In this document: piece by piece, positions 11,316 to 36,478 of the stretch
How positions within the stretch are numbered: the stretch's first letter is position 1
How the letters are laid out: every line of letters begins with the position of its first letter
NCBI RefSeq assembly: GCF_000742135.1
Contig: NZ_KN046818.1
Coordinates: 3,353,447 to 3,417,446, forward strand
DNA from: Klebsiella pneumoniae
Lineage (GTDB): Bacteria; Pseudomonadota; Gammaproteobacteria; Enterobacterales; Enterobacteriaceae
Length of the DNA: 64,000 bases
Direction: 5' to 3'
Translations under genes and position numbers: made by a program
Notes under the pieces: generated by a model
What the model was told of the DNA's origin: nothing
Seen by the model: the letters and a program-made list of their open reading frames with translations, nothing else
Databases searched by the model: none

Positions 11316-12479
11316 TTAGCGTGCAGCCTCGTAGATACGGCGGCTGACGTCCAGGGTGATATCCTGATGTTCGCCCAGTTTAGTCATGCCGTGCTCTTCC
11401 AGTTTCGCCAGCAGCGCCGGGATGGAGCTACCGTCGAGACCGTAATCGGAAAGGCGGGTCGGCACGCCCATCTGCTCGAAGAACTGACGCGTTGCGGCGA
11501 TGGCGGCATCGATACGTTGGTCGTCAGAGCCTTCGGTAATATTCCACACGCGCTCGGCATACTGCAGCAGCTTCTCGCGCTTGGCATCGCGTTTCTCATT
11601 CCACAGCGCCGGCAGCACGATAGCCAGCGTCTGGGCGTGATCCAGGCCGTGCATCGCCGTCAGCTCGTGGCCGAGCATATGCGTCGCCCAGTCCTGTGGC
11701 ACGCCTGCGCCGATCAGGCCGTTCAGCGCCTGCGTCGCCGCCCACATAATGTTGGCGCGCACGTTATAGTTCTCCGGTTCCTGCAGGGCTTTCGGGCCAT
11801 CCTCGATCAGGGTCAAGAGAATGCCTTCGGCGAAACGGTCCTGGATTTTGCCGTCTACCGGGTAGGTCACGTACTGCTCGACGGTATGGACGAAGGCGTC
11901 AACCACGCCGTTCGCGACCTGGCGCGGCGGCAGGGTATAGGTATAAACCGGATCGAGGATCGCGAACTGCGGCTGGACGTGCGAAGACATAAACGCGCGT
12001 TTGTCGCCGGTGGTTTTCCGCGATATGACCGCGCCTTTGTTGGATTCAGAACCGGTCGCTGGCAGAGTCAGTACCGAGCCCATTGGAATGGCGCTGGCAA
12101 TTTTGCTGCCATAGGTTTCCAGAATTTCCCACGGATCGATATCCGCGTCGTAGTGGGCTGCTGCAGCGATAAACTTGGTGCCATCCAGCACCGAACCGCC
12201 GCCGACCGCCAGCAGGAAGGTCACTTTCTCTTCCCGGGCGAGTTTCACCGCATTCATCAGGGTTTCGTAAGACGGGTTCGGCTCGATGCCGCCAAATTCA
12301 AGGACATCCAGGCCATTCAGAGCGGTGAGGACCTGATCCAGGACGCCTGTTTTTTTGACGCTGCCGCCGCCGTAGGTGATCAGTACGCGGGCTTCCGCCG
12401 GGATCTGTTCACGCAGCTTTTCAATCGCGCCTTTGCCAAACAGAATGCGGGTTGGGGTATGCAGGTCGAAATTATTCAT
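11316..12479 (-). CDS. yqhD: NADPH-dependent aldehyde reductase YqhD (Fe-type alcohol dehydrogenase)
   Basis: A 387-residue iron/zinc group III alcohol dehydrogenase that reduces short aldehydes such as those from lipid peroxidation, methylglyoxal and glyoxal. The nucleotide-binding motif GGGSVLDGTKF is at about residues 93-103. The metal ligands lie in the segments containing DAFVHTVEQY and MLGHELTAMHGLDHAQTLA. Length equals E. coli YqhD. It is divergent from its activator gene yqhC across a 196-base gap and leads the yqhD-dkgA unit. Confidence 0.96.
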   Translation of the reverse strand: MNNFDLHTPTRILFGKGAIEKLREQIPAEARVLITYGGGSVKKTGVLDQVLTALNGLDVLEFGGIEPNPSYETLMNAVKLAREEKVTFLLAVGGGSVLDGTKFIAAAAHYDADIDPWEILETYGSKIASAIPMGSVLTLPATGSESNKGAVISRKTTGDKRAFMSSHVQPQFAILDPVYTYTLPPRQVANGVVDAFVHTVEQYVTYPVDGKIQDRFAEGILLTLIEDGPKALQEPENYNVRANIMWAATQALNGLIGAGVPQDWATHMLGHELTAMHGLDHAQTLAIVLPALWNEKRDAKREKLLQYAERVWNITEGSDDQRIDAAIAATRQFFEQMGVPTRLSDYGLDGSSIPALLAKLEEHGMTKLGEHQDITLDVSRRIYEAAR

Positions 12480-12675
12480 TGCTTAAGTCCTCCAAAGAGT
12501 AAAACCGTCGACAGGGACGATACCGCTGCCCGATGAAGGTTATTGTGGTCCTGGCGCCGTTGACCCTCAATGCACATTCCTGCCGATGTCTTGCCTATTT
12601 CTCCATATGGCTGGAGAATTTGTAGCGGCCTGCGCACAATGTACAGGTGAAGAAACATCGGGAGAGACGGTGGCA

Positions 12676-13575
12676 ATGCAACACGCAGAGATATGTCGGA
12701 CATTAACGGAGAAGATTAACCTGCTGAAAGATAAGCACGAAATGTTAAGTTCGTTGCTGCCTGACGTCCGTTTGCTGTACGGAACGCAACCGGGGCCCCG
12801 GACGCCGGTGATGTATCAGCCGGGGATCGTTTTTCTCTTTTCGGGCCATAAAATTGGTTATATCAATGAGCGGACTTTTCGCTACGATACAAACGAATAT
12901 TTACTGCTGACCGTGCCGCTACCTTTCGAGTGCGAAACCTTTGCCACCCCGGAGGTGCCCCTCGCCGGGATGCGCCTGAACGTCGATATCCTGCAACTGC
13001 AAGAGCTGCTGATGGATATTGGCGAAGATCCGCTGTTTCAGCCTGCGGTCGCCTCCAGCGGGATAAACTCCGCGGTACTCTCGGAGGATATTCTGTGCGC
13101 TGCCGAACGGCTGCTTGACGTGATGGAGCGGCCGCTGGACGCACGGATCCTGGGCAAGCAAATCGTCCGCGAAATTCTGTATTATGTGCTGACGGGGCCC
13201 TGCGGCGGCGCGCTGTTGGCGCTGGTCAGCCGGCAGACCCACTTCAGCCTGATAAGTCGCGTGCTCAAGCATATCGAAAGCCAGTACACCGAAAACCTCA
13301 GCGTCGATCGGCTGGCGGCGGAAGCGAATATGAGTGTGTCAGCGTTTCACCATAATTTTAAAGCGGTGACCAGCACTTCTCCTTTGCAGTATCTGAAAAA
13401 CTACCGTTTGCATAAAGCACGAATGCTGATGATCCATGACGGCATGAAGGCCAGCGCGGCGGCGATGCGCGTGGGATATGAAACCCCTTCGCAGTTCAGC
13501 CGCGAGTTTAAGCGCTACTTCGGTTTGACGCCGGGAGAAGACGCCGCGCGTATTCGCACGATGCAGGGGATGTAA
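12676..13575 (+). CDS. yqhC: AraC-family activator YqhC of yqhD-dkgA
   Basis: A 299-residue regulator. An N-terminal AraC-type ligand domain covers about 25-190, and two helix-turn-helix motifs lie at about 205-295 ([22 protein letters not shown] and [25 protein letters not shown]). The ATG at 12676 follows a GGAGAGACGGTGGCA region and gives the length typical of the family. An in-frame extension to 12586 is possible but would overlap the divergent promoter. In E. coli YqhC senses aldehydes and turns on yqhD and dkgA. Its position beside those genes supports the same role. Confidence 0.9.
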
Positions 13576-25930: not shown

Positions 25931-27112
25931 ATGCACGATCGGCGTCTCGCCGCCCGCGCGGGTGAACTCAAGCCCTCCGCCGTCCGCGAACTTCTCAAGC
26001 ACAGTAAACTGCCCGGCGTGATTTCGCTTGGCGGCGGCATTCCGGCCCCGGAACTGTTTGATACCGAAGGCCTGGAGCTGGCGGTGCAGAAGGTGATGAG
26101 CGAGCGTTTTAATGACGCATTCCAGTACGGTCTGACGGAAGGCTACCCGCCGCTGCGCCAGGCGGTGAGTGAAATTTGCCACTCCCGTGGCGTCGCCTGT
26201 TCAGCCGCCCAGGTCTATATCACCTCCGGCTCCCAGCAATCGCTGGATATCGTTGCCCGTACGCTGCTCGATCCGGGCGATACTATCGTCGTTGAGCGTC
26301 CCACCTATCTGGCGGCGCTGCAGGTATTTCAGCTGGCGCAGGCCAATATTCTCAGCGTTGACACCGACGATGACGGGATGCTGGTGGAGCAGCTGGCCGA
26401 CCTGCTGGAGACCACCCGCGTCAAAGCTGTTTACCTGGTGCCGACGTTCGGCAATCCCGGCGGCAAAACGCTGAGCGAGGCGCGTCGTCGCCGGTTGGTT
26501 GAGCTGGCGAAAAAATATGATTTCGTCATTCTGGAAGACGATCCCTACGGCGAAATTAGCTTTACAGACGCCGTTAGACGCCCGCTCTATCAGCATGCTG
26601 TCGAGCTGGGCTGTGAAGATCAGGTGGTTTACACCTCGACTTTTTCGAAAATCCTCGCGCCAGGGATGCGTATCGGCTGGATCGTCATGCCGGACTGGCT
26701 GGCGCAGCAGACGGTGATTGTGAAGCAGGCGGCGGATCTGCATACCAATATGCTGTCGCAGGTGATCACTGCGGAATACCTCAGTCTGAACCGGCTGGAT
26801 AACCAGATTGCGTTGATTCGCGAAGACTACCGCAAGAAGTGCGTGGCGCTGGCCGATGCGCTGGAAAGCCGCCTTGGCGAGCACCTGGAATTCAGCCGCC
26901 CGCAGGGGGGGATGTTCCTGTGGGCGCGTTTCCGCTATCCGTTCGATACCATGGAATGGATGAAGAAAACGCTGGAAAACGGCGTGGTGTACGTCCCGGG
27001 TGAAGCGTTCTATCACGATAAGCCGGATACCCGTACCCTGCGTCTTTCTTACTCCACGGTGTCAGAAGCCGGATTGCTGACGGCCGTTGAGCGGCTGGCG
27101 GCCTCCCTGTAA
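25931..27112 (+). CDS. PLP-dependent class I aminotransferase
   Basis: A 393-residue fold-type I aminotransferase without a MocR DNA-binding domain. The substrate loop reads GVISLGGGIPAPELFD (about 29-44), and the PLP-lysine motif is YTSTFSKILAPGMRIGW (Lys about 240). ITSGSQQSLDIVARTLL, VVERPTYLAAL and YLVPTFGNPGG are also diagnostic of the 2-aminoadipate/kynurenine aminotransferase II group. The substrate cannot be fixed from the sequence. It is a single gene; the next 300 bases lead to IS1. Confidence 0.85.
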   Translation: MHDRRLAARAGELKPSAVRELLKHSKLPGVISLGGGIPAPELFDTEGLELAVQKVMSERFNDAFQYGLTEGYPPLRQAVSEICHSRGVACSAAQVYITSGSQQSLDIVARTLLDPGDTIVVERPTYLAALQVFQLAQANILSVDTDDDGMLVEQLADLLETTRVKAVYLVPTFGNPGGKTLSEARRRRLVELAKKYDFVILEDDPYGEISFTDAVRRPLYQHAVELGCEDQVVYTSTFSKILAPGMRIGWIVMPDWLAQQTVIVKQAADLHTNMLSQVITAEYLSLNRLDNQIALIREDYRKKCVALADALESRLGEHLEFSRPQGGMFLWARFRYPFDTMEWMKKTLENGVVYVPGEAFYHDKPDTRTLRLSYSTVSEAGLLTAVERLAASL

Positions 27113-27120
27113 CGTCTCTG

Positions 27121-27148
27121 CTGTGCGCCGCTTTTCGGCGGCGCGCAG
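27121..27148. other. Hairpin after the aminotransferase gene
   Basis: CTGTGCGCCGC pairs with GCGGCGCGCAG (one G-U type mismatch) across a short T-rich loop, nine bases after the stop codon. There is no T tract, so it is only a possible terminator. Confidence 0.4.
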
Positions 27149-27178
27149 CCCTGCGTGACGTTAACGTCCAGCGCAGGG

Positions 27179-27268
27179 TCAATCCGTTTCGGCGATCCGG
27201 TCATCGAGCCAGACCAGCATCAGCGCGGCGAGAAAAGCCAGCGCAAAGGTTCCAATAAACAACCACAT
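27179..27268 (-). CDS. Possible 29-residue single-helix membrane protein
   Basis: The short frame reads MWLFIGTFALAFLAALMLV and then WLDDRIAETD. It is one membrane helix followed by an acidic tail. GAGGGA lies five bases before the ATG. The layout resembles small membrane subunits such as CydX, but there are no cyd genes nearby and I do not recognise it. It overlaps no other gene. Confidence 0.45.
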   Translation of the reverse strand: MWLFIGTFALAFLAALMLVWLDDRIAETD

Positions 27269-27437
27269 AGACGTCCCTCGCGGGTTAATTATTTTGCTGA
27301 TTCTACCGGAGAGCGATCGTTGCGGTCGGCGATGGAGATTTTAGTTCCGGCGGAATGGCTGGCGAGAGAGAAAAAGTCATCGGCATCAATATCGAAGTTA
27401 AGAATAATTTCCCTGTATTTTCGGTAATGACTCCAAC

Positions 27438-27941
27438 TTACTGATAGTGTTTTATGTTCAGATAATGCCCGATGACTTTATCATGCAGCTCCACCGATTT
27501 TGAGAACGACAGTGACTTCCGTCCCAGCCTTGCCAGATGTTGTCTCAGATTCAGGTTATGTCGCTCAATGCGCTGAGTGTAACGCTTGCTGATAACGTGC
27601 AGCTTTCCCTTCAGGCGTGATTCATACAGCGGCCAGCCATCCGTCATCCATACCACGACCTCAAAGGCCGACAGCAGGCTCAGAAGACGCTCCAGTGTGG
27701 CCAGAGTGCGTTCACCGAAGACGTGCGCCACAACCGTCCTCCGTATCCTGTCATACGCGTAAAACAGCCAGCGCTGACGTGATTTAGCACCGACGTAGCC
27801 CCACTGTTCGTCCATTTCAGCGCAGACAATCACATCACTGCCCGGTTGTATGCGCGAGGTTACCGACTGCGGCCTGAGTTTTTTAAGTGACGTAAAATCG
27901 TGTTGAGGCCAACGCCCATAATGCGTGCACTGGCGCGACAT
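27438..27941 (-). CDS. insB: IS1 transposase, InsB part (DDE domain)
   Basis: A 167-residue frame carrying the catalytic DDE region of IS1 ([38 protein letters not shown]). The active transposase is the InsAB' fusion made by a -1 frameshift at an A6C run at 27878-27884 (minus strand) in the overlap with insA. All parts look intact. Confidence 0.95.
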
Positions 27942-28135
27942 CCGACGCCATTCATGGCCATATCAATGATTTTCTGGTGCGTACCGGGCTGAGAGGCGGT
28001 GTAAGTGAACTGTAGTTGCCATGTTTTACGGCAGTGAGAGCAGAGATAGCGCTGATGTCCGGCAGTGCTTTTACCGTTACGCACGACGCCTTCGGTAGCT
28101 GAACAAGTGGGACATCTGATGGAAATGGAAGCCAC
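27860..28135 (-). CDS. insA: IS1 repressor / N-terminal protein InsA
   Basis: The 91-residue InsA has four zinc-ligand cysteines (CPTCSA and CSHCRKTW) and a helix-turn-helix ([23 protein letters not shown]). It binds the IS1 ends and represses transposition when not fused to InsB. It overlaps insB by 82 bases with the frameshift site inside. Confidence 0.95.
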
Positions 28136-28190
28136 GCAAGCACCTTAAAATCACCATCATACACTAAATCAGTAAGTTGGCAGCATTACC

Positions 28191-28770
28191 CGCAAAGCCT
28201 TTCCTTTTACAGTCGCGGGTTATTCCATGGCAGGCTGATGAACAGGATAACGTATCCGGTAATCAGAGTGGAGGGGTGCCATTTATTGTATTGCCTCCCT
28301 TACAGCGGCTGGAAGCATCAGATGCGCTGACGCTCCGTATCCGTTTAACGCGTAATACACTGCCTAAGGATCGTGAGTCGGTATTTATTCTGAGCCTGAA
28401 AACCATACCTGGTCAGGAGAAAAACACGGATTCAGCGTCATTGACGCTGGCTATGCAAAATAATCTGAAGCTGTTTTATCGCCCGGAGGGGATGCCTGAG
28501 TATGATGTGTCCGAATTTGCGCGGGAAATACGGTTTATATCGCAGAGTGGGGAACTGAAAGTGATAAACCCGACACCATATTATCTCACTTTTCGTTCAC
28601 TGTCTGTCGGGAAATATCCGGTCGAAAAAAACGCGCTTTCAAAAATGATACCGCCATTTGGGGAGCAGAGGTACCCATTATCATCCGGTGCGCGGGGGCA
28701 GGTGACCTGGAGTCTTATTGACGGTGAAGGACGGAATACTCCAGAGCAGGTCAGCGTACTGTCTGGGTAA
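28191..28770 (+). pseudogene. Periplasmic fimbrial chaperone, 5' end removed by IS1
   Basis: The frame enters from IS1 and begins inside the first domain of a PapD-like chaperone (KPFLLQSRVIPWQADEQ). The middle has SVFILSLKTIPGQ and NNLKLFYRP, which contains the conserved lysine that anchors the pilin C-terminus, and domain 2 follows to residue 193. The signal peptide, the first strands and the conserved Arg near residue 8 are missing (about 45 residues). Without a signal peptide the product cannot reach the periplasm, so I call it broken. It leads into the usher after 31 bases. Confidence 0.85.
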
Positions 28771-28801
28771 GTATTTTAATAAATACAATCTTTTCTGGTG
28801 A

Positions 28802-31411
28802 ATGGAAAAAAGCGACATGCATCTTATTTCTAATTTCGGGAAGCCTTCTTCCGGGAAGCTTTTCCGTTACTCCCCGGTGGCAGGTTTTTTATTGGTTTGT
28901 ATTAACCCAGCCTGGGCCGGTGATTATTTTGATCCGGGATTTCTTGGTAATTCCGGCGATAATACGGCTGTCGACCTTTCCGCATTTTCTGAGGCCGGGG
29001 GAGTTCAGCCGGGGAAATATACGGTATGGGTATTTGTTAACCAGCGCAATGCAGGGCAGTACACCCTGGATTTTCAGAAAAATACGCAGGGCAAAATTGC
29101 GCCGGTTCTCACGCCATCTGAACTGGAAACGTTTGGAGTGAATGTCAGGCAACTGCCGGACCTGAAAGATTTGCCTGCTACGGCTGAGATAGACAATATT
29201 GGCGCGCTTATCCCTCAGGCGACCACCATGCTGGATCTGGCGCGCCTGCGTCTGGATATCAGCGTACCTCAGGCCGCGATGCAGCCTGAAGTACGTGGTG
29301 CGGTTGACCCGTCGCAATGGGAAGAGGGAATTTCCGCCCTGATGGCGAACTATAGCCTCAGCGCCGGTCGTACCACGAATTCCGGCCAGAACCAGACCTC
29401 ACATAATAACAACCTCTTTGCAACCGTGCGCGCCGGGGCAAACACGGGGCCGTGGCGCCTGCGCAGCACCATGACCCATACCCGGGTGGAGAATAACGGC
29501 GGTAATAATGCCCTGACGACCACCCAGACACGCTTTTCGAATACCTACCTTGCCCGCGATATTCGGGGCTGGCGCTCGAACTTACTCATGGGTGAGAGTA
29601 GCACCGGAAGTGACGTTTTTGACGGTATCCCTTTCCGTGGGGTGAAGCTCAGCTCTAATGAACAGATGCTCCCGAGCCAGCTTCGTGGCTATGCGCCGGC
29701 CATCAGCGGCGTGGCGAACAGTAATGCCCGAGTGACTGTGCGTCAAAACGGCAATGTAGTGTACGAGACCTATGTGGCGCCAGGGCCGTTTTACATCAAT
29801 GATATCCAGCAGGCCGGCCTGTCAGGGGACTATGATGTCAAAGTCACGGAAGCGGACGGCACCGAGCGCCAGTTCATCGTGCCCTACTCTTCCCTGCCGG
29901 TCATGTTGCGTCCCGGTGGCTGGAAGTATGAGCTGACGGCGGGACAGTATGACGGCAATCTGACAGATGGTTCCCGCCGGGCTGATTTTATGCTGGGGAC
30001 CGTGGTATACGGACTGCCCGGTGATGTCACGCTGTTCGGCGGTATTCTCGCCGCAAAAGACTACCAGGCGTTCAACATCGGTACCGGGGTATCCCTGGGA
30101 TACGTCGGTGCGCTCTCGGCTGATATCACGAATTCATCGGCGAAGTTTGATAACGAATCCACCCTGATAGGCCAGTCTTATCGCGTTCGTTATTCCAAAA
30201 GTCTGCTGTCCACGGGCACCTCTGTTGATTTAACCGCGCTGCGGTATTCAACCGAGGATTATTACAGTTTCAGTGAATTCAACAGTCAGGGACACCAGTT
30301 GCAGGAGGGAGTCAGCCCGTGGTCCCTGCAGCGCCGTCGTAACAGCTTCCAGACGCAGCTCAGCCAGCAACTCGGGGACTGGGGAACCATGTATTTCCGG
30401 GCCAGCCGGGATGACTACTGGGGAGGCGAACGTACGCTGACCGGCATGTCGCTGGGTTACAGCAACAGCCTGAAAGGCGTCAGTTACGGTGTCAACTACA
30501 ACATTGATCGGACAAAGGATGCGAACGGTAACTGGCCGGAAAATCGCCAGATTTCGTTTAACGTCAGTGTGCCGTTCAGCATCTTTGGCTATTCACGTAA
30601 CCTGCAATCAATGTATGCCACCACGACGCTCACTCATGATAACACCGGGCGGACCCTGAGTCAGACCGGGCTCAGTGGTAACACTCTGGACGGGAAACTG
30701 TCCTACAGTGCTTCGCAAAGCTGGGGTAACCAGGGACAGATCAGTAACACCAACTTAAATACCGGTTACCAGGGAAGCAAGGGAAGTATCAGCGGCGGAT
30801 ACAGCTACAGCAGCGATATGCAGGCTATCAACATGAGCGCAAGTGGCGGGGTGATGGTGCATAGTGGCGGGATAACGCTGTCACGTGCCATGGGCGATTC
30901 GGTGGCGCTGGTGAGTGCCCCGGGGGCGGCTGGCGTGAGTGTCAACGGTGGTACGGCGGTCACCGACTGGCGCGGATATGCGGTAGTGCCTTACCTGACG
31001 GATTACACCCGCAACAGCGTGGGTGTTGACCCCAGCACCTTACCGGAAAATGTCGACCTCACACAGACCAACCTCAATGTATACCCGACCAAAGGCGCTG
31101 TCGTCAAAGCAAACTTTACGACCCGGGTGGGTTATCAGGTGCTGATGACGCTTAAACTCGACAATGGCGTGGTGCCGTTTGGAGCAGTTGCCACGTTACT
31201 GAATGCGGGGATGGCAGAGGTGAATAGCAGCATCGTGGGTGATGACGGACAGGTTTATCTGACCGGATTGCCGGAGCGGGGGGAGTTACTGGTTAAGTGG
31301 GGCGAGACAGCAGCACGTCAGTGCCGTGTCAGTTTTGACATCTCCGGTTTATCGACGTCGCCGGATAAACCGGTCCGTCAGGTGACCTATACCTGTCAGG
31401 GCGGGAAATGA
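28802..31411 (+). CDS. Outer-membrane fimbrial usher (FimD/PapC family)
   Basis: An 869-residue usher with every expected part. There is a long signal peptide (about 40 residues ending in NPAWA), an N-terminal chaperone-binding domain starting GDYFDPGFLGN, a 24-strand beta-barrel with the plug region around RGYAPAISGVANSNARVTVRQNGNVVYETYVAPGPF, and C-terminal domains with a late cysteine pair (ARQCRVSFD and YTCQGGK). The frame is intact. The chaperone upstream is truncated and no major pilin gene is present in the window. The stop overlaps the start of the RT-adhesin gene. I do not recognise a named fimbrial type. Confidence 0.93.
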   Translation: MEKSDMHLISNFGKPSSGKLFRYSPVAGFLLVCINPAWAGDYFDPGFLGNSGDNTAVDLSAFSEAGGVQPGKYTVWVFVNQRNAGQYTLDFQKNTQGKIAPVLTPSELETFGVNVRQLPDLKDLPATAEIDNIGALIPQATTMLDLARLRLDISVPQAAMQPEVRGAVDPSQWEEGISALMANYSLSAGRTTNSGQNQTSHNNNLFATVRAGANTGPWRLRSTMTHTRVENNGGNNALTTTQTRFSNTYLARDIRGWRSNLLMGESSTGSDVFDGIPFRGVKLSSNEQMLPSQLRGYAPAISGVANSNARVTVRQNGNVVYETYVAPGPFYINDIQQAGLSGDYDVKVTEADGTERQFIVPYSSLPVMLRPGGWKYELTAGQYDGNLTDGSRRADFMLGTVVYGLPGDVTLFGGILAAKDYQAFNIGTGVSLGYVGALSADITNSSAKFDNESTLIGQSYRVRYSKSLLSTGTSVDLTALRYSTEDYYSFSEFNSQGHQLQEGVSPWSLQRRRNSFQTQLSQQLGDWGTMYFRASRDDYWGGERTLTGMSLGYSNSLKGVSYGVNYNIDRTKDANGNWPENRQISFNVSVPFSIFGYSRNLQSMYATTTLTHDNTGRTLSQTGLSGNTLDGKLSYSASQSWGNQGQISNTNLNTGYQGSKGSISGGYSYSSDMQAINMSASGGVMVHSGGITLSRAMGDSVALVSAPGAAGVSVNGGTAVTDWRGYAVVPYLTDYTRNSVGVDPSTLPENVDLTQTNLNVYPTKGAVVKANFTTRVGYQVLMTLKLDNGVVPFGAVATLLNAGMAEVNSSIVGDDGQVYLTGLPERGELLVKWGETAARQCRVSFDISGLSTSPDKPVRQVTYTCQGGK

Positions 31412-33489
31412 TGAACATGAATCCCACACAGTGTAATGAGCTGAGTGCGGAGCACGATGAACGCACGAAGTGGCATAACGACGACCTGCGTGATGCGCAA
31501 CGTTTAGACGAGGCCTGGGCCTGGCTGTGTGAGTCGCGCAAAACGGCGCCAGCGAATGCGGATATCTGGCATTTGCGACAGCGCTGGCCTGCCTGCCGGG
31601 AAGCGTTTCTCAGAAAACTGCAGTCGGGAGAGCACCACCTGTCCCCCATGTTGGTGGTGGGGACACGCCGTCAGGTGATGTGGCCCGCGGAGGATGCGCT
31701 GGCCCTTAAGTGGGTGGCGCTGTCCATCACCCCATCCATCCCGGTACATGAGAAGTGTGAGCATGTGAAGGGGCATGGCGGTGGTAGATCGTCCGTACGT
31801 CGGATCTCGCAGAGCCTGACCGAAAACGGTTACCGCTGGGTTTGCCGCACCGACATTAAGGGGTATTACGGGGCTATCAATAAAGAGACTTTGCTGTTGC
31901 AGCTGAGAGAGCATATTACGCACCCGGCGTATCTGACTATTTTAACTCAGTATATTCACTACAGCGTGGAAGAGGGCGGCGAGTTTTACACGCCCGAAAA
32001 GGGTATCGCGCGTGGTTGCGCGTTAAGTCCGCTCATGGGGGCGTTGCATCTCTGGGCTGTGGATAATTATTTTGCTCATCAACATAAAATCTATTATGGA
32101 CGTTATATGGACGATTTTGTTATTTTAACTTACAGCCGCTGGCAGTTACGTAAGCAGGTGAAGCAACTCAATAAATATCTTGCGTCATTAGGGTTTGAGA
32201 AACACCCGGACAAGACGTTTATTGGCAAAGTGAGCCGGGGTTTTGACTGGCTGGGCGCGTGGCTCACGGATAAGGGTGTGGTCGGCATTGCCCCTCGCGC
32301 ACTGACCAACCACCGGGAGAAGGTCCGTCGGCTTTATGAGCAGACACGTCACTGGTCTAAAACGAAACAAGCCAGGCGTGTGTCGGATTACCGTGCACGG
32401 TGGAAAATTTGGGGGGCTATGGTAGGACTCCTGTCCTCCGCCCCCTCTTACGCCCTCATTGAGGTCATACGCCCAGGCGGGGCGGATGCTACCTGGCGCG
32501 TTCCGGTGAACCTCACCATCCCCGGTACCACCGCATCTGGTTCCAATTTGGATACAAATAATCTCGGGGCACCGGCTAGCGTCGTTCGAGCCGACGTAAT
32601 GCCGCCCGATGGATCCTGCATGCGCGTACCGTTTCACCAGGCCATGACCACGACCAGCGACGGGTTCTACGGCATACCACTAGGTCCGGACCTCGTGTTA
32701 GGGATCTCGGGCACGATGACTGGCTCGACCCAGTACACCTCGGGACGTGTGAATGGCTCTGCGACGCTTGCGGATAACGGTGTCACCGCGTCCCAAACCT
32801 ATCCGCTATCCAGGTGTCCTTGGGCGGCCCCAACCACCACCACGTCTGGGACCCAGACGTCCGTAACAATGTCGTATCCATCCTCGTTCACTGGTAGCGT
32901 CTTCATTCATGCAGGTCCGAACGCCGTTGCCGGGACGTACAACGTGGTACCGCTTGTGTTTGCAAAATTCAGTGCGAATACGTGGGGGAGTCCTCCCACA
33001 GTCTCCATTCCCTTGCCGTCTGCTGTACGTGTGGTGTTGCCCACTTCGTGCACCGTCAACATAGACACACCTACAGTCCAATTTGGCCAGATTGACGCGT
33101 CCGTCGCATCCGGGCAACTCATGCGGGTGCAGCAAAGCACTGTAACGACCTCGTGCACCTCTGTCGATGATGGTGGCAGTGGGACCAATCGCGTGTCAGT
33201 TACCCTATCCGCGCAAGGCACCGTTGGAGACGTTTCAAATTCTCTCGCTCTCCAGGATGCCTCGAATACTGTCAAGATGGCTAATATCTTTGGTCTAATA
33301 GGAAACCGCCCTGCCGGGCAGTGCACACCCGACGTCAACAACTTCGACTTCGTAGGAACCCCGTTTGACCTGGGAACCGTAGGGGTAGGGAGCACGGGTA
33401 CCATCCTTACCTGGTCCTTGTGCAGTAACGGAACGGGTGCCCTCGGCATAGGGCATGCTAGTGCGGTGCTCACCGTCTCGTGGCCTTGA
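31408..33489 (+). CDS. Reverse transcriptase fused in frame to a two-domain fimbrial adhesin
   Basis: One 693-codon open frame. Residues about 30-337 form a reverse transcriptase: RTDIKGYYGAI with catalytic Asp149, GIARGCALSPLMGALHL (199-215), YGRYMDDFVIL with Asp235-Asp236, HPDKTFIG and FDWLGAWL, ending in a conserved-looking YRARWKIWGAMVGL. Residues about 350-693 are an exported fimbrial protein: an N-terminal lectin-like half and a pilin-like half (SCTVNIDTPTVQFGQI, paired cysteines, end AVLTVSWP). The stretch RARWKIWGAMVGLLSSAPSYA at the join (about 329-349) looks like a signal peptide. A GTG at 32380 or the ATG at 32419 could start a separate adhesin. The ATG overlaps the usher stop (ATGATG), so the gene is co-translated with the usher. 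The catalytic residues are intact. Function of the RT is unknown. Confidence 0.85.
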   Translation: MMNMNPTQCNELSAEHDERTKWHNDDLRDAQRLDEAWAWLCESRKTAPANADIWHLRQRWPACREAFLRKLQSGEHHLSPMLVVGTRRQVMWPAEDALALKWVALSITPSIPVHEKCEHVKGHGGGRSSVRRISQSLTENGYRWVCRTDIKGYYGAINKETLLLQLREHITHPAYLTILTQYIHYSVEEGGEFYTPEKGIARGCALSPLMGALHLWAVDNYFAHQHKIYYGRYMDDFVILTYSRWQLRKQVKQLNKYLASLGFEKHPDKTFIGKVSRGFDWLGAWLTDKGVVGIAPRALTNHREKVRRLYEQTRHWSKTKQARRVSDYRARWKIWGAMVGLLSSAPSYALIEVIRPGGADATWRVPVNLTIPGTTASGSNLDTNNLGAPASVVRADVMPPDGSCMRVPFHQAMTTTSDGFYGIPLGPDLVLGISGTMTGSTQYTSGRVNGSATLADNGVTASQTYPLSRCPWAAPTTTTSGTQTSVTMSYPSSFTGSVFIHAGPNAVAGTYNVVPLVFAKFSANTWGSPPTVSIPLPSAVRVVLPTSCTVNIDTPTVQFGQIDASVASGQLMRVQQSTVTTSCTSVDDGGSGTNRVSVTLSAQGTVGDVSNSLALQDASNTVKMANIFGLIGNRPAGQCTPDVNNFDFVGTPFDLGTVGVGSTGTILTWSLCSNGTGALGIGHASAVLTVSWP

Positions 33490-33506
33490 CAACATTGAAC
33501 TCGTAG

Positions 33507-33939
33507 GAAGCGGTTCAGTGCTGTCAGTCACTGAAAACGTGGAAATTGGCGCTGGAGCGCGGCGAAATCCGGTTCACGGTGGTATTTGGTACCAAAGGCC
33601 ATCGTCCCCGTGAAACCATTCAGGACGCTGGCGCAGGGAAAAAAGTGCCGGAAAATGCCCTGGCTGTCGCAGAACAACGTGACGGCAGACTGATTGACAA
33701 GCCCAGTCTCCAGCAAGCGATGGATTACTGGCGCAAAGAAATCGCGAAGACCGGGCTGACGGGGTATTTATATCCTGCAGTCATTCCGTTATGCATGGAC
33801 GCAGGATGCGCTCCGCCGATATCTGGCGCAGGGATTCAGTCACAGGGAAGCGCTGGCGCTGACCTCGATGGATTTGGGCCACGGCGACGGGCGCGGGCGG
33901 TATGTGGTGCGGGTTTACGGGCGACGGGAAGAGGAATAA
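33507..33939 (+). pseudogene. Frameshifted remnant of a phage/island integrase (C-terminal part)
   Basis: Two frames together give the end of an integrase-domain protein. The first frame reads EAVQCCQSLKTWKLALERGEIR, FTVVFGTKGHRPRET and GRLIDKPSLQQAMDYWRKE. After a frameshift near 33770-33795 it continues in the next frame as RYAWTQDALRRYLAQGFS, HREALALTSMDLGHGDGRGR and YVVRVYGRREEE to a stop at 33937. The N-terminal part is absent. It begins 17 bases after the adhesin stop. The family is recognised from its conserved C-terminal end; it marks an old mobile element. Confidence 0.75.
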
Positions 33940-34110
33940 TTTCCTGTTCTGGTGCAATCATGAAAAGCAAAAGGCCGAAGGGGTAAAGGAGCGCTAACGG
34001 TAACAGCGCCAGGCCAGAACAGACCAAAGGGCTGAAAGGGCTGGCACTGGCGCAGATTGGTGTTTATCCGGGGAGATCTGGCGCCGAGAAATGGATTACG
34101 AAGCTGGTAC
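33940..34110. other. Island stretch without a recognisable gene
   Basis: Between the integrase remnant and the terminator there is only a short unrecognised frame of about 45 codons ending at 34132 (IGVYPGRSGAEKWITKLVQI). No ribosome-binding site or family match is evident. It is probably debris of a mobile element. Confidence 0.4.
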
Positions 34111-34141
34111 AAATAAAAAAGCAGATCCGCTGAGATCTGCT
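34111..34141 (-). terminator. Intrinsic terminator downstream of the tRNA-Phe integrase
   Basis: On the minus strand an eight-base stem (AGCAGATC and GATCTGCT, six-base loop) is followed by TTTTTTATTT. It lies 25 bases past the original end of the integrase frame. Confidence 0.8.
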
Positions 34142-34165
34142 TTCCTACGTGATCCACTGAATGGC

Positions 34166-35437
34166 TCAGGCCACCTGAACCTGCCTGTCATACCGATATG
34201 GCGCAACAAAATTCTGCCGACAGGCGTCGAGATAGTCCGACCACCACTACATCATCTGCGTGCGCTCATCGAGGTGCTCCGCCTTGTGGATATAGGCGGC
34301 GCGCACGTTGTTACGTTCCTGATGGCTCATCTGCCGCTCCACGGCATCTTTCGACCAGCGCCCGGACTCGATCAGCGCGCTACAGGCCATCGTGCGGAAG
34401 CCGTGACCGCATACGTCCACTTTCGTATCGTAGCCCATCACCCGCAGCGCCTTGTTGATGGTGTTTTCGCTCATTGGCTTGCGCGGATCGTGATCGCCGG
34501 GAAACAGCAACTCGCTGTTACCGGACAGCAGCTTTAACTGTTTCAGCACCGTGACCGCCTGTTTTGACAGCGGCACCAGATGCGGCGTTTTCATCTTTGC
34601 GCCACGCTCTGAATAGCGCACACCCGGAATCGGCTCACGCTCGGCGGGGATGGTCCACATTGCGCCATCCAGATCGATCTCCGTCCAGCGGGCAAAGCGC
34701 AGTTCGCTGGAGTGAATAAAGATCAGCAGGTTAAGCTGCACCGCCAGACGGGTTAACAGCCTGCCGGAATAGCCCTCGAAGCACTCCAGTAATTCCGGCA
34801 TTTTCTCCAGCGGCAGAGCGGGGTAGTGGTTTTTCGGCGGCGGTGCGATGGCTCCGGTAAGATCGTTTGCCGGATTGCTGGCGATCAGGCTCTCCTGTAC
34901 CGCGTAGCGCATGATCGCCGTGATGCGCTGTTGGAGCCGCGCGGCGGTCTCCAGATTGCCCTTTCTCTCCGCCACCCGCAGCGGGATCAGCAGATCGGCG
35001 GTTTTCAGGTCGGCAACGGGGATTTTGCCAATCAGTGGAAATACGTGCAGCTCCAGCGAGCGCAGGGCTTTAGCGGCGTGTGCCTCCGTCCAGCGGATAT
35101 TGCCTGCCACCCATTTACGGGCGATTTCTTCAAAGGTGTTGCCGCTTTTCTTTGCCTGCTTCTCCTGCTGCTTTTTTACCCCCGGATCGTCACCCGCGCT
35201 GAGTACGGCGCGGGCTTCCTCACGCAGCTTACGCGCATTCGCCAGCGTAACGGTTGGGTAAGCGCCAAACGCCAGCTTCTTCTCCTTCCCGCCAAAGCGG
35301 TACTTGAGCTGCCAGAGCTTAGAGCCGTTGGGTTTAATCAGCAGGTCCAGACACTGCGCGTCGCTGGGCTTGTAAGGCGTATTGCCAGACTTGGTATTCC
35401 GGATGGTGGTATCGGTATTTGAGTGCCCGGACTCGGA
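34166..35437 (-). pseudogene. P4-type tyrosine integrase, start lost and late amber codon
   Basis: The reading frame is open from 35437 to an amber codon at 34249-34247 and shows a nearly whole P4-family integrase. The N-domain has KPNGSKLWQLKYRFGGKEKK, and the catalytic residues are all present: Arg in SSELRFARW, HGFR in VCGHGFRTMA, His in MSHQERN and Tyr in RAAYIHKAE. There is no ATG, GTG or TTG at the proper start; the first five codons are the 15-base tRNA-like att core. After the amber codon the frame continues WWSDYLDACRQ to a stop at 34168-34166, so the natural C-terminus is cut off by 26 residues. An internal GTG at 35110 would drop the arm-binding domain. I judge it inactive. Confidence 0.85.
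35423..35437. repeat. Second copy of the tRNA-Phe 3' end (attachment core)
   Basis: GTGCCCGGACTCGGA is identical to bases 35586-35600 inside the tRNA-Phe gene. It marks a site-specific recombination core 163 bases from the tRNA copy, directly at the 5' end of the integrase. Confidence 0.8.
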
Positions 35438-35439
35438 CT

Positions 35440-35525
35440 AACGCCGCAGGCGTTGAACAGCGCGCGTGTCGCGCTGGCCCCGAAGGGGTGAGCCGCTGTG
35501 CGGCGAATAATCGAACGCAGTTCGA
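35440..35525. repeat. Array of five perfect short hairpins
   Basis: Five inverted repeats follow one another in 86 bases: AACGCC-gca-GGCGTT (35440-35454), CAGCGCG-cgtgt-CGCGCTG (35458-35476), CCCC-gaa-GGGG (35478-35488), GCCGC-tgt-GCGGC (35492-35504) and TCGAAC-gca-GTTCGA (35511-35525). Loops are 3-5 bases. It lies between the att repeat and the tRNA-Phe terminator. No protein frame is supported. Its role is unknown; it could be a structured RNA or a single-strand DNA element of an old mobile unit. Confidence 0.6.
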
Positions 35526-35548
35526 TGGAGAGTCCGGCTACAGAAAAG

Positions 35549-35573
35549 CAAAAACCCGCCTTTTGGGCGGGTT
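35549..35573 (-). terminator. Intrinsic terminator of tRNA-Phe
   Basis: On the minus strand AACCCGCC and GGCGGGTT pair around a five-base loop and are followed by TTTGCTTTT, ten bases after the tRNA 3' end. Confidence 0.8.
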
Positions 35574-35583
35574 CTTTAAATAG

Positions 35584-35659
35584 TGGTGCCCGGACTCGGA
35601 ATCGAACCAAGGACACGGGGATTTTCAATCCCCTGCTCTACCGACTGAGCTATCCGGGC
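35584..35659 (-). tRNA. tRNA-Phe (GAA)
   Basis: A 76-base tRNA beginning GCCCGGATAGCTCAGTCGG and ending in an encoded CCA. The anticodon GAA is at plus-strand bases 35624-35626, and the T-loop GGTTCGATTCC is present. All stems pair. It is the E. coli pheV-type locus beside yqgA and the integration site of the adjacent island; its sequence is intact. Confidence 0.97.
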
Positions 35660-35764
35660 AACGGGGCGCATTAAACCGTAATCGCCGCGCCTCGTCAACG
35701 AAATTTATCTGTTTTGCAGCAGACTGAACAATCTATCACCACATTGCGCTAAAAGCACGCGTTT

Positions 35765-36478
35765 TCAGGCAAAAAACAGCGTCCAGGCCGCGGAAATTGG
35801 CATCGCCAGCACCAGCGCAGGCAGCATATTCACTACGGCAAACATTTTTATCCCGCAGATGCGCAGCCCGGTGGCCACCAGCAGCATGCCGCCGACGGCG
35901 CTGAAATCCGCCAGCATCATCGGCGTGGTAAGCGGCATAATGATCGCCGCGCAGGCTGCAAGAGTCAGCTGGATAAGCAGCATCGGTACGCTGATGGCGG
36001 CGACGGCAATGCCCAGGGTGCAGGCGAAGATGGTAGCGGTGAAAAAGTCGAGAAACGCTTTGGCAATCAGAATGCTGGCGTCGCCGGTCATCCCTTCGCG
36101 CATGGCGCCGAAGACGCCGGTGCCGCTGGCGCAGAACAGGACGATAATCGCCACATAGCTCTGAATATAAGACTCATGAGCCGAAGCCTTTTTCTTGCCT
36201 TTCGCTGACATCAACTGCTGGAGTTTACTGACCAGCGTATTGATGCCTTTTTCCATATTGCATATTTCGCCGAGCAGCGTCCCCACCAGGGTCGACAGCA
36301 CCATCACCGGCAGATTGGCGCACTTAATGACCAGTAAAATGCCGATGCCCAATGACGCCAGGCCAAAAATAGAGGTCATTGCGGTGCGGATCCGTTCCGG
36401 CAACCGTTGGCTGAGTAAGGCGCCCAGCACACCGCCGACCAGCACCGCGCTGGCGTTAATAAAAGGTCCTGTAACCAC
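35765..36478 (-). CDS. yqgA: DUF554 family membrane protein YqgA
   Basis: A 237-residue inner-membrane protein with seven or so hydrophobic segments, of unknown function, recognised by its N-terminus MVTGPFINASAVLVGGVLGALLSQRLPERIRTAM and by AGFQ-free glycine-rich helices typical of DUF554. The gene lies next to tRNA-Phe and divergent from the speC region, as in E. coli. Confidence 0.9.
   Translation of the reverse strand: MVTGPFINASAVLVGGVLGALLSQRLPERIRTAMTSIFGLASLGIGILLVIKCANLPVMVLSTLVGTLLGEICNMEKGINTLVSKLQQLMSAKGKKKASAHESYIQSYVAIIVLFCASGTGVFGAMREGMTGDASILIAKAFLDFFTATIFACTLGIAVAAISVPMLLIQLTLAACAAIIMPLTTPMMLADFSAVGGMLLVATGLRICGIKMFAVVNMLPALVLAMPISAAWTLFFA

Follow-up and report, generated by a model that had tools for sequence, protein, structure and literature searches.

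A hypervariable island behind UG4 reverse transcriptase genes, and its likely origin in reverse transcription of adhesin messages

A stretch of 64,000 nucleotides (nt) of the Klebsiella pneumoniae genome (assembly GCF_000742135.1, contig NZ_KN046818.1, positions 3,353,447 to 3,417,446; here called the window) contains a frame of 693 codons without internal stop (31408-33489, forward strand) that encodes a reverse transcriptase (RT) followed by a fimbrial adhesin, which raises the question what an RT does in a pilus operon. An initial inspection of the letters (the sequence-only reading) had reported this frame and its position directly behind an usher gene, and both hold: the frame overlaps the end of the usher open reading frame (ORF; 28802-31411) by 4 nt. 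The fused gene is single-copy in the 5.5-Mb genome, and a one-off fusion made by the assembly, the outcome that would have undone the observation, is rejected, as 114 of 120 listed relatives are at least 600 amino acids (aa) long. The RT is of the UG4 class, since the PADLOC profile RT_UG4 is the best match over the RT domain (residues 30-336, E 2e-127, 422.6 bits; runner-up RT_UG17 with 102.4 bits) and fimbrial genes (usher, chaperone, adhesin) are fused or adjacent to it. The DNA just 3' of UG4 RT genes is a hypervariable island, and as in related bacteria this DNA evolved much more rapidly than most of the sequence around it, the RT likely copies the adhesin with errors and thereby shifts the adhesion of the cell.

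The island is visible already between near-identical plasmids (loci are numbered with L, and positions are counted from the end of the RT gene). Two Escherichia albertii plasmids (L039/L040) differ by 12 substitutions in 10.9 kb, all of which lie at +160 to +357, i.e. in 198 nt of the adhesin, and by one-base indels at -4885 and +1055; nine codons are changed, six of them non-synonymously and three synonymously, and the frame is kept. Such clustering of substitutions in adhesin alleles is what the sequence-only reading had proposed to look for. Among six E. coli plasmids (L026, L036, L050-L053), about 10 kb of sequence contain just three substitution sites (+263, +328 and +336), all within the ORF after the RT, with three alleles (T, A, G) at +328 and four haplotypes in total, and two one-base indels lie elsewhere. 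When all loci were compared with each other, 16 pairs had RTs at least 95% identical, and these share loci, so that they do not represent 16 independent events: three are near-identical also downstream (98.8-99.9%), one (L046/L048) is only 78.6% identical there, and for the other 12 blastn aligns the following 1.1 kb in part at most.

The pair L046/L048 from E. marmotae gives the shape of the island. The RT is 99.3% and the 2 kb upstream 97.3% identical, as compared with the 78.6% in the following 1.1 kb, and the differences per 100 nt amount to 0-3 in the RT, then 44, 42 and 53 at +100 to +399, then 31, 25, 11, 15, 13, 7, 3, 7 and 6 up to +1299, and about zero up to +1899. Synonymous differences fade as well, with proportions (pS) of.60,.72,.50,.25 and.15 per 60 codons; the RT lines of this synonymous analysis were not used for L046/L048 and L044/L046, as they are out of frame because of gaps. 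In L041/L042, the synonymous divergence (dS) is about 2 in the adhesin versus.066 in the RT. In 15 chosen pairs, identity falls sharply near the RT end, and in eight of them it is back at 85% or more in some bin of 100 nt. For 19 chosen pairs, the inner change point was placed at -74 to +158, and the RNA element described below ends near -25; the extreme of -74 comes from a pair with L033, a locus with an incomplete RT 3' end and a damaged element that scores weakly (24.3 bits). A pair of fused genes behaves similarly: between the fused loci L020 and L021, the DNA is 90-96% identical in the RT and 31-61% over the next 1.2 kb, recovers to 86, 86 and 78% at +1200 to +1499, and is lower again thereafter. 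In the window's own family, relative P0001, which stands for a cluster of 564 proteins, matches the window protein at all but two of 693 residues. Compared with P0002 per 50 residues, it is 98-100% identical in the aligned RT, falls to 68-83% at 351-550 and is back at 96-100% after that; with P0006, from a cluster of 416 proteins, the values are 96-100% as far as residue 300, 72% for 301-350 and 26-53% from there on. Codon usage was dropped as evidence: synonymous codons are used more evenly in the adhesin than in the RT in many loci, but the reverse holds in others, for instance L008 and L022.

The changes are not restricted to one type of base. Downstream of the RT, L046/L048 differ by 99 transitions and 138 transversions, as compared with 202 and 103 in the RTs of seven clade pairs, which share loci (Fisher p 1.4e-8), and 17 recent changes consist of 7 transitions and 10 transversions. 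A, C, G and T sites each differ at.31-.38 in L046/L048, and non-A pairs are among the recent changes. As a control served the F18 fed operon, a related operon without RT: all 35 E. coli records in which most of the chaperone, FedE and the FedF adhesin is covered show an identity of at least 98.8%. A second adhesin copy that might act as donor was not found in the window's genome or on the plasmids searched, and a megablast search with the L026 region in 5,426 E. coli genomes gave one record only. The L026 RT is present in five of these genomes, and the window DNA was not found in E. coli genomes.

At the inner edge of the island, the end of the RT gene appears to encode more than protein. Among 33 RTs that are intact over the scored stretch, with 491 of 528 pairs below 75% protein identity, the last 57 codons show a raised synonymous codon identity (permutation p 0.00035). 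The codons CGG308, CTT309 and GAG311 are the same wherever two compared sequences have the residue in common, where.32,.33 and.62 would be expected. An alignment of 35 RT ends (A3) folds as a three-way junction (32326-32385 in the window), in which the stems P1 and P3 show compensatory changes and P2 has the form GCUU-NNN-GAGC, with stem letters identical in 35 of 35 sequences and a middle A in 34 of them. The junction cells are paired to 96.7%, versus 82.8% in shuffled alignments and 31.9-54.5% when the structure is slid along, and changes on both sides of a pair number 53 versus 12.5 in shuffles (0 of 500 shuffles). The RT gene's end thus contains a covarying three-way RNA junction, and its invariant U-G pair and frequent G-U pair point to a formation in the RT-sense RNA strand. 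A covariance model of the element (R1), for which the window sequence is one of 26 building sequences, has its only strong match in the window at 32320-32391 and matches 46 of 48 sources, partly by construction; the two misses are L027, an eroded RT remnant, and L056, the F18 control. No Rfam 15 family matches 32320-32391 up to E 1 in a search of positions 27000-36000.

A protein search, with scoring limited to the 7,996 candidates sharing most words, gave 256 relatives, the named host genera being Klebsiella, Serratia, Enterobacter, Yersinia, Providencia, Salmonella, Raoultella and Rahnella. At E 1e-40, the RT occurs in 11 of 392 genomes of a family sample and in 5 of 394 genomes of an order sample; no relative was confirmed on viral contigs, and one pattern scan of genome contigs gave four loci, both patterns being narrow. 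A set of 45 loci contains a UG4 RT or its 3' part, with near-identical repeats and duplicates set aside, and the arrangements in it are counts of ORFs, for part of which the adhesin identity was checked. The RT frame runs on for at least 180 codons in five loci (fused; one of them, L027, keeps the RT end only), a same-direction ORF of at least 180 aa follows the RT directly in 24, and in 13 a convergent ORF of at least 180 aa, in some cases an inverse autotransporter, ends at the RT 3' end. Three loci have neither, so that in 42 of 45 such an ORF is fused to the RT, follows it or faces it. The RT-adhesin fusion is therefore one of three arrangements of a UG4 RT and a neighbouring ORF, and RTs of this clade do recur beside adhesin genes, which the sequence-only reading had suggested should be looked for. 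In the annotation of five Salmonella plasmids, the convergent partner is an inverse autotransporter. Fimbrial tip adhesins adjoin the RT 3' end with their N-terminus, inverse autotransporters with their C-terminus, and the N-terminus of FimH-like adhesins and the C-terminus of intimin and invasin are the receptor-binding ends. Two further observations concern the neighbourhoods: on Escherichia plasmids (L041-L048), DsbA-like and in some cases LuxR-like genes lie between FedE and the RT, and genes of tyrosine-type invertases or recombinases are found near invasin-like genes in L032 and L035 (near 12200-13100) and in L033 (7963-8250), possibly for phase variation.

The RNA element occurs also without an intact RT. 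At E 1e-3, R1 matches in 28 of 392 family genomes, and once matches under 34 bits are discarded as chance, 29 places remain, spread over 15 genomes that include all 11 family-sample genomes with an RT at E 1e-40; in the other four, the element lies in an RT remnant or a broken RT. Two remnants (L087, L088), both from a genome that also has three intact RTs, reach from about residue 200 to the end and stand directly before ORFs of 294 and 283 aa, and the L087 remnant contains a stop, yet has the best element score of that search (78.1 bits). Second cassettes with element and RT 3' end are located at L014:388-465, L029:8353-8430 and L034:3392-3463. It would fit these cases that the element acts on its own, possibly in trans, and cassettes with only an RT remnant would then be served by intact RTs elsewhere in the cell. 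As separate observations, RT 3' remnants with the element stand beside an adhesin-like ORF in L087, L088, L092, L097, L014, L029 and L034, some of them with stops; one genome (G180, L089-L091) has eight R1 matches, several of which face convergent ORFs, including adhesin-like ones; and in L055 an RT with an internal stop stands beside a diverged adhesin on a plasmid that carries a second RT (L044).

In the RT half of the window's fusion, the motifs of the sequence-only reading are confirmed (D149, GCALSP at 203-208, YMDD at 233-236), and in a 50-sequence alignment D235 and D236 are invariant columns, and L206, S207 and P208 are nearly invariant or better. In a search of the PDB with the RT, the G2L4 structure (9d4s, E 1.9e-9) ranked behind RT-Cas1 and GsI-IIC. 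Structures of defence-associated RTs (DRT) are also among the fold matches, and PADLOC files RT_UG4 under DRT, which is a label only. The adhesin half has no Pfam match up to E 1 and was modelled alone, because the fold lists of the whole fusion were filled by RTs. The AlphaFold2 model (predicted local distance difference test score, pLDDT, 83.3; predicted template modelling score, pTM, 0.73) has as top Foldseek matches the tip adhesins of CFA/I (6k73, E 1.4e-7), Csu, type 1 (FimH), P (PapG) and CupB pili, with low whole-model template modelling (TM) scores of 0.25-0.36, and its second domain fits pilins better (PapA, TMt 0.72). By its model, the adhesin half is a chaperone-usher tip adhesin with a lectin-like plus a pilin domain fold, low whole-model TM-scores included, so that the two-domain tip adhesin of the sequence-only reading finds support. 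A possible GTG start (32380) for an adhesin with a signal-peptide-like N-terminus falls inside the RNA stems P3 and P1 (32378-32385).

How could the RT produce the island? We consider it likely that the UG4 RT copies the RNA after its own gene with errors at all four bases, and that the altered copy replaces the original, whereby the adhesin is hypermutated. The RT would bind the three-way junction, which covariation shows, at the 3' end of its own message and would reverse-transcribe the downstream RNA from variable starts towards the junction, where synthesis would end. This would yield an island with a sharp inner and a fading outer edge, as is seen in part of the pairs. The complementary DNA would then recombine with the locus, the template being the target gene itself, as no second copy was found in the records searched. 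Hit hardest would be the adhesin end beside the junction, i.e. the 5' end of fimbrial tip genes and the 3' end of the convergent invasin-like genes, which by this geometry encodes the presumed receptor-contacting part and may be the purpose of the arrangement, and an in-frame fusion with the adhesin would link the RT to the message that is being changed. Localized hypervariability is in keeping with the earlier idea of an RT that alters the adhesin sequence, and from it we infer that the RT causes the mutations.

Several points weigh against this mechanism. The link between RT and mutation is drawn from sequence comparison. Saturation at high divergence lowers the transition share, L046 and L048 differ also around -2.4 kb and at -3.2 to -4.0 kb, and their records part beyond +1.9 kb. 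Seven of the 15 chosen pairs never regain 85% within the range compared, and the window's own family was compared as proteins only, not as DNA alleles. L042/L043 have one adhesin change, but another lies 1 kb upstream and three more are found farther downstream, ahead of a rearrangement, and CP074277 and CP074282 are identical throughout; these two are neutral cases. The search for donor copies covers the window's genome, plasmids and E. coli genomes, but not most chromosomes of the plasmid hosts.

Large divergences with conserved flanks would look alike if adhesins had diverged in separate lineages and were swapped by homologous recombination, with the RT gene being a homology arm and not mutagenic, and the second cassettes with an RT 3' end (L014, L029, L034) as well as some plasmids with two UG4 copies would suit such an exchange. 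It is nevertheless unlikely, as single-base changes occur in near-identical plasmids, one site being triallelic, as there is a gradient rather than two sharp edges, and as no donor was detected on plasmids, in the window's genome, or in E. coli genomes at megablast sensitivity; also the altered spectrum speaks against it, and the RNA junction and the conserved active site of the RT would be left unexplained. A fading outer edge would result as well if the RT acted on DNA like G2L4 and extended outwards from a break or nick near the junction, with errors that fade, but the invariant U-G and the frequent G-U pair of the junction are compatible with the RT-sense RNA and not with the other strand, and no nuclease is linked, which makes mutagenic DNA repair quite improbable.

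Ordinary mutations that are kept by strong diversifying selection would be expected at the receptor-binding end, which is presumably the adhesin end that adjoins the RT, and non-synonymous changes do occur there. Synonymous sites, however, are equally affected and follow the same gradient, and the F18 tip adhesin of the related RT-less operon is conserved, so that we give selection alone hardly any credence. The same low rank is assigned to an anti-phage defence RT that sits in adhesin operons by chance: the DRT label of PADLOC and the DRT structures among the fold matches would agree with it, but it has to face the 42 of 45 loci with a large ORF at the RT 3' end, and it leaves island and gradient unexplained. 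The preferred explanation thus remains error-prone copying of the downstream RNA by the UG4 RT.

In the window, the operon adjoins an integrase fragment, a tyrosine integrase and tRNA-Phe downstream (33546-35659), which suggests the edge of an integrated island. On the other side, the chaperone lacks its N-terminal part beside ORFs that we take to be of IS1 type (27438-28770), a defect that the sequence-only reading had missed, and this copy of the operon may therefore be unable to make or export pili. The features are listed in the table.

Table. Features of the RT-adhesin locus, in positions of the window
Feature	Position	Strand	Basis
IS1-like transposase ORFs abutting the chaperone remnant	27438..28135	-	ORF list
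Chaperone without N-terminal part	28177..28770	+	PapD_N match starts at profile position 28
Usher	28802..31411	+	PF00577, PF13954, PF13953
UG4 RT half, residues 1-337	31408..32418	+	PADLOC RT_UG4, RVT_1, YMDD at 233-236
RNA element in RT gene, 72 nt (predicted)	32320..32391	+	covariance model R1, 59.5 bits, E 6.7e-18
Stem P1, 5' side CGTC, partner 32382-32385	32326..32329	+	covariation; one U-U mismatch in the window
Hairpin P2, GCTT-TAT-GAGC	32331..32341	+	stem letters identical in 35/35 aligned sequences
Stem P3, 5' side ACAC, pairs with GTGT 32378-32381	32344..32347	+	covariation
Stem P3, 3' side GTGT	32378..32381	+	covariation
Signal-peptide-like stretch, residues 325-349, possible internal GTG start at 32380	32380..32454	+	by eye, without signal-peptide program
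Stem P1, 3' side GTCG	32382..32385	+	covariation
Two-domain fimbrial tip adhesin half (predicted)	32440..33489	+	AlphaFold2 model and Foldseek matches
Most variable adhesin part, residues 351-550	32458..33057	+	P0001 vs P0002 68-83% per 50 residues
Less variable pilin-like part, residues 551-693	33058..33486	+	P0001 vs P0002 96-100%; vs P0006 35-53%

The RNA junction, the convergent invasin-like partners and the gradient were out of reach of the sequence-only reading. It held that nothing of the kind had been described, and this is only half right: UG4 RTs with a fimbrial domain or with fimbrial neighbours are in print, with 66% co-occurrence, and are limited to Proteobacteria apart from one similar Bacillus RT (accessible parts of PMC8934634 and PMC4244168). 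The RT class and the fimbrial association are the same here, whereas the RNA element, the hypervariable island, the invasin-like partners and a function are not given in those parts of the published accounts. No function for UG4 and no RT-adhesin hypermutation system was found in the literature searched, with bioRxiv and most subscription papers lying outside the search. Diversity-generating retroelements (DGRs), such as that of Bordetella phage BPP-1 (described in the accessible part of PMC12875486), would work alike. The UG4 RT is of a different class, has GCALSP at 203-208 and its RNA junction inside the RT gene, and its island reaches up to about 1.3 kb. DGR RTs carry a GxxxSQ motif. Membership in the DGRs was rejected, as this motif, a template repeat (in the window's genome and on the plasmids searched) and a confinement of changes to adenines were all looked for and not found, and all four bases change; the sequence-only reading was thus right that the RT is not of DGR type. 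No Avd annotation is listed in the regions fetched, where no profile search aimed at Avd was made. The role described for the group II-like RT G2L4, as far as the accessible text goes, is the repair of DNA breaks, while here the RT is tied to adhesins and an RNA junction. With the tip adhesins CfaE, FimH, PapG and FedF the fusion shares the two-domain adhesin after an usher and the fold matches, and we know of none of these joined to an RT; the F18 locus of FedF differs in having no RT and a conserved adhesin region.

New here are the hypervariable island 3' of the RT, the covarying RNA junction, and the four-base spectrum without a template repeat. To our knowledge, DGRs are so far the only systems that use reverse transcription for targeted hypermutation, and they depend on a template repeat and alter adenines. 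The UG4 system is rated as a candidate new kind of RT-based diversifier, if the RT indeed causes the changes, and on balance we lean towards a second, independent class, which would have an RNA landing site in the end of its own gene, rewrite any sequence beyond this site at all four bases, whichever strand is coding and with no need of a template repeat, and be attached to the receptor-binding ends of pili and invasin-like adhesins, at the extreme within a single polypeptide. If this is true, a diversifier with a near-flat spectrum that does without a template repeat would be a new principle of programmed mutation, and it would give the so far unassigned UG4 RTs a function and account for why some pilus and invasin-like tips of gut bacteria are so extremely diverse.
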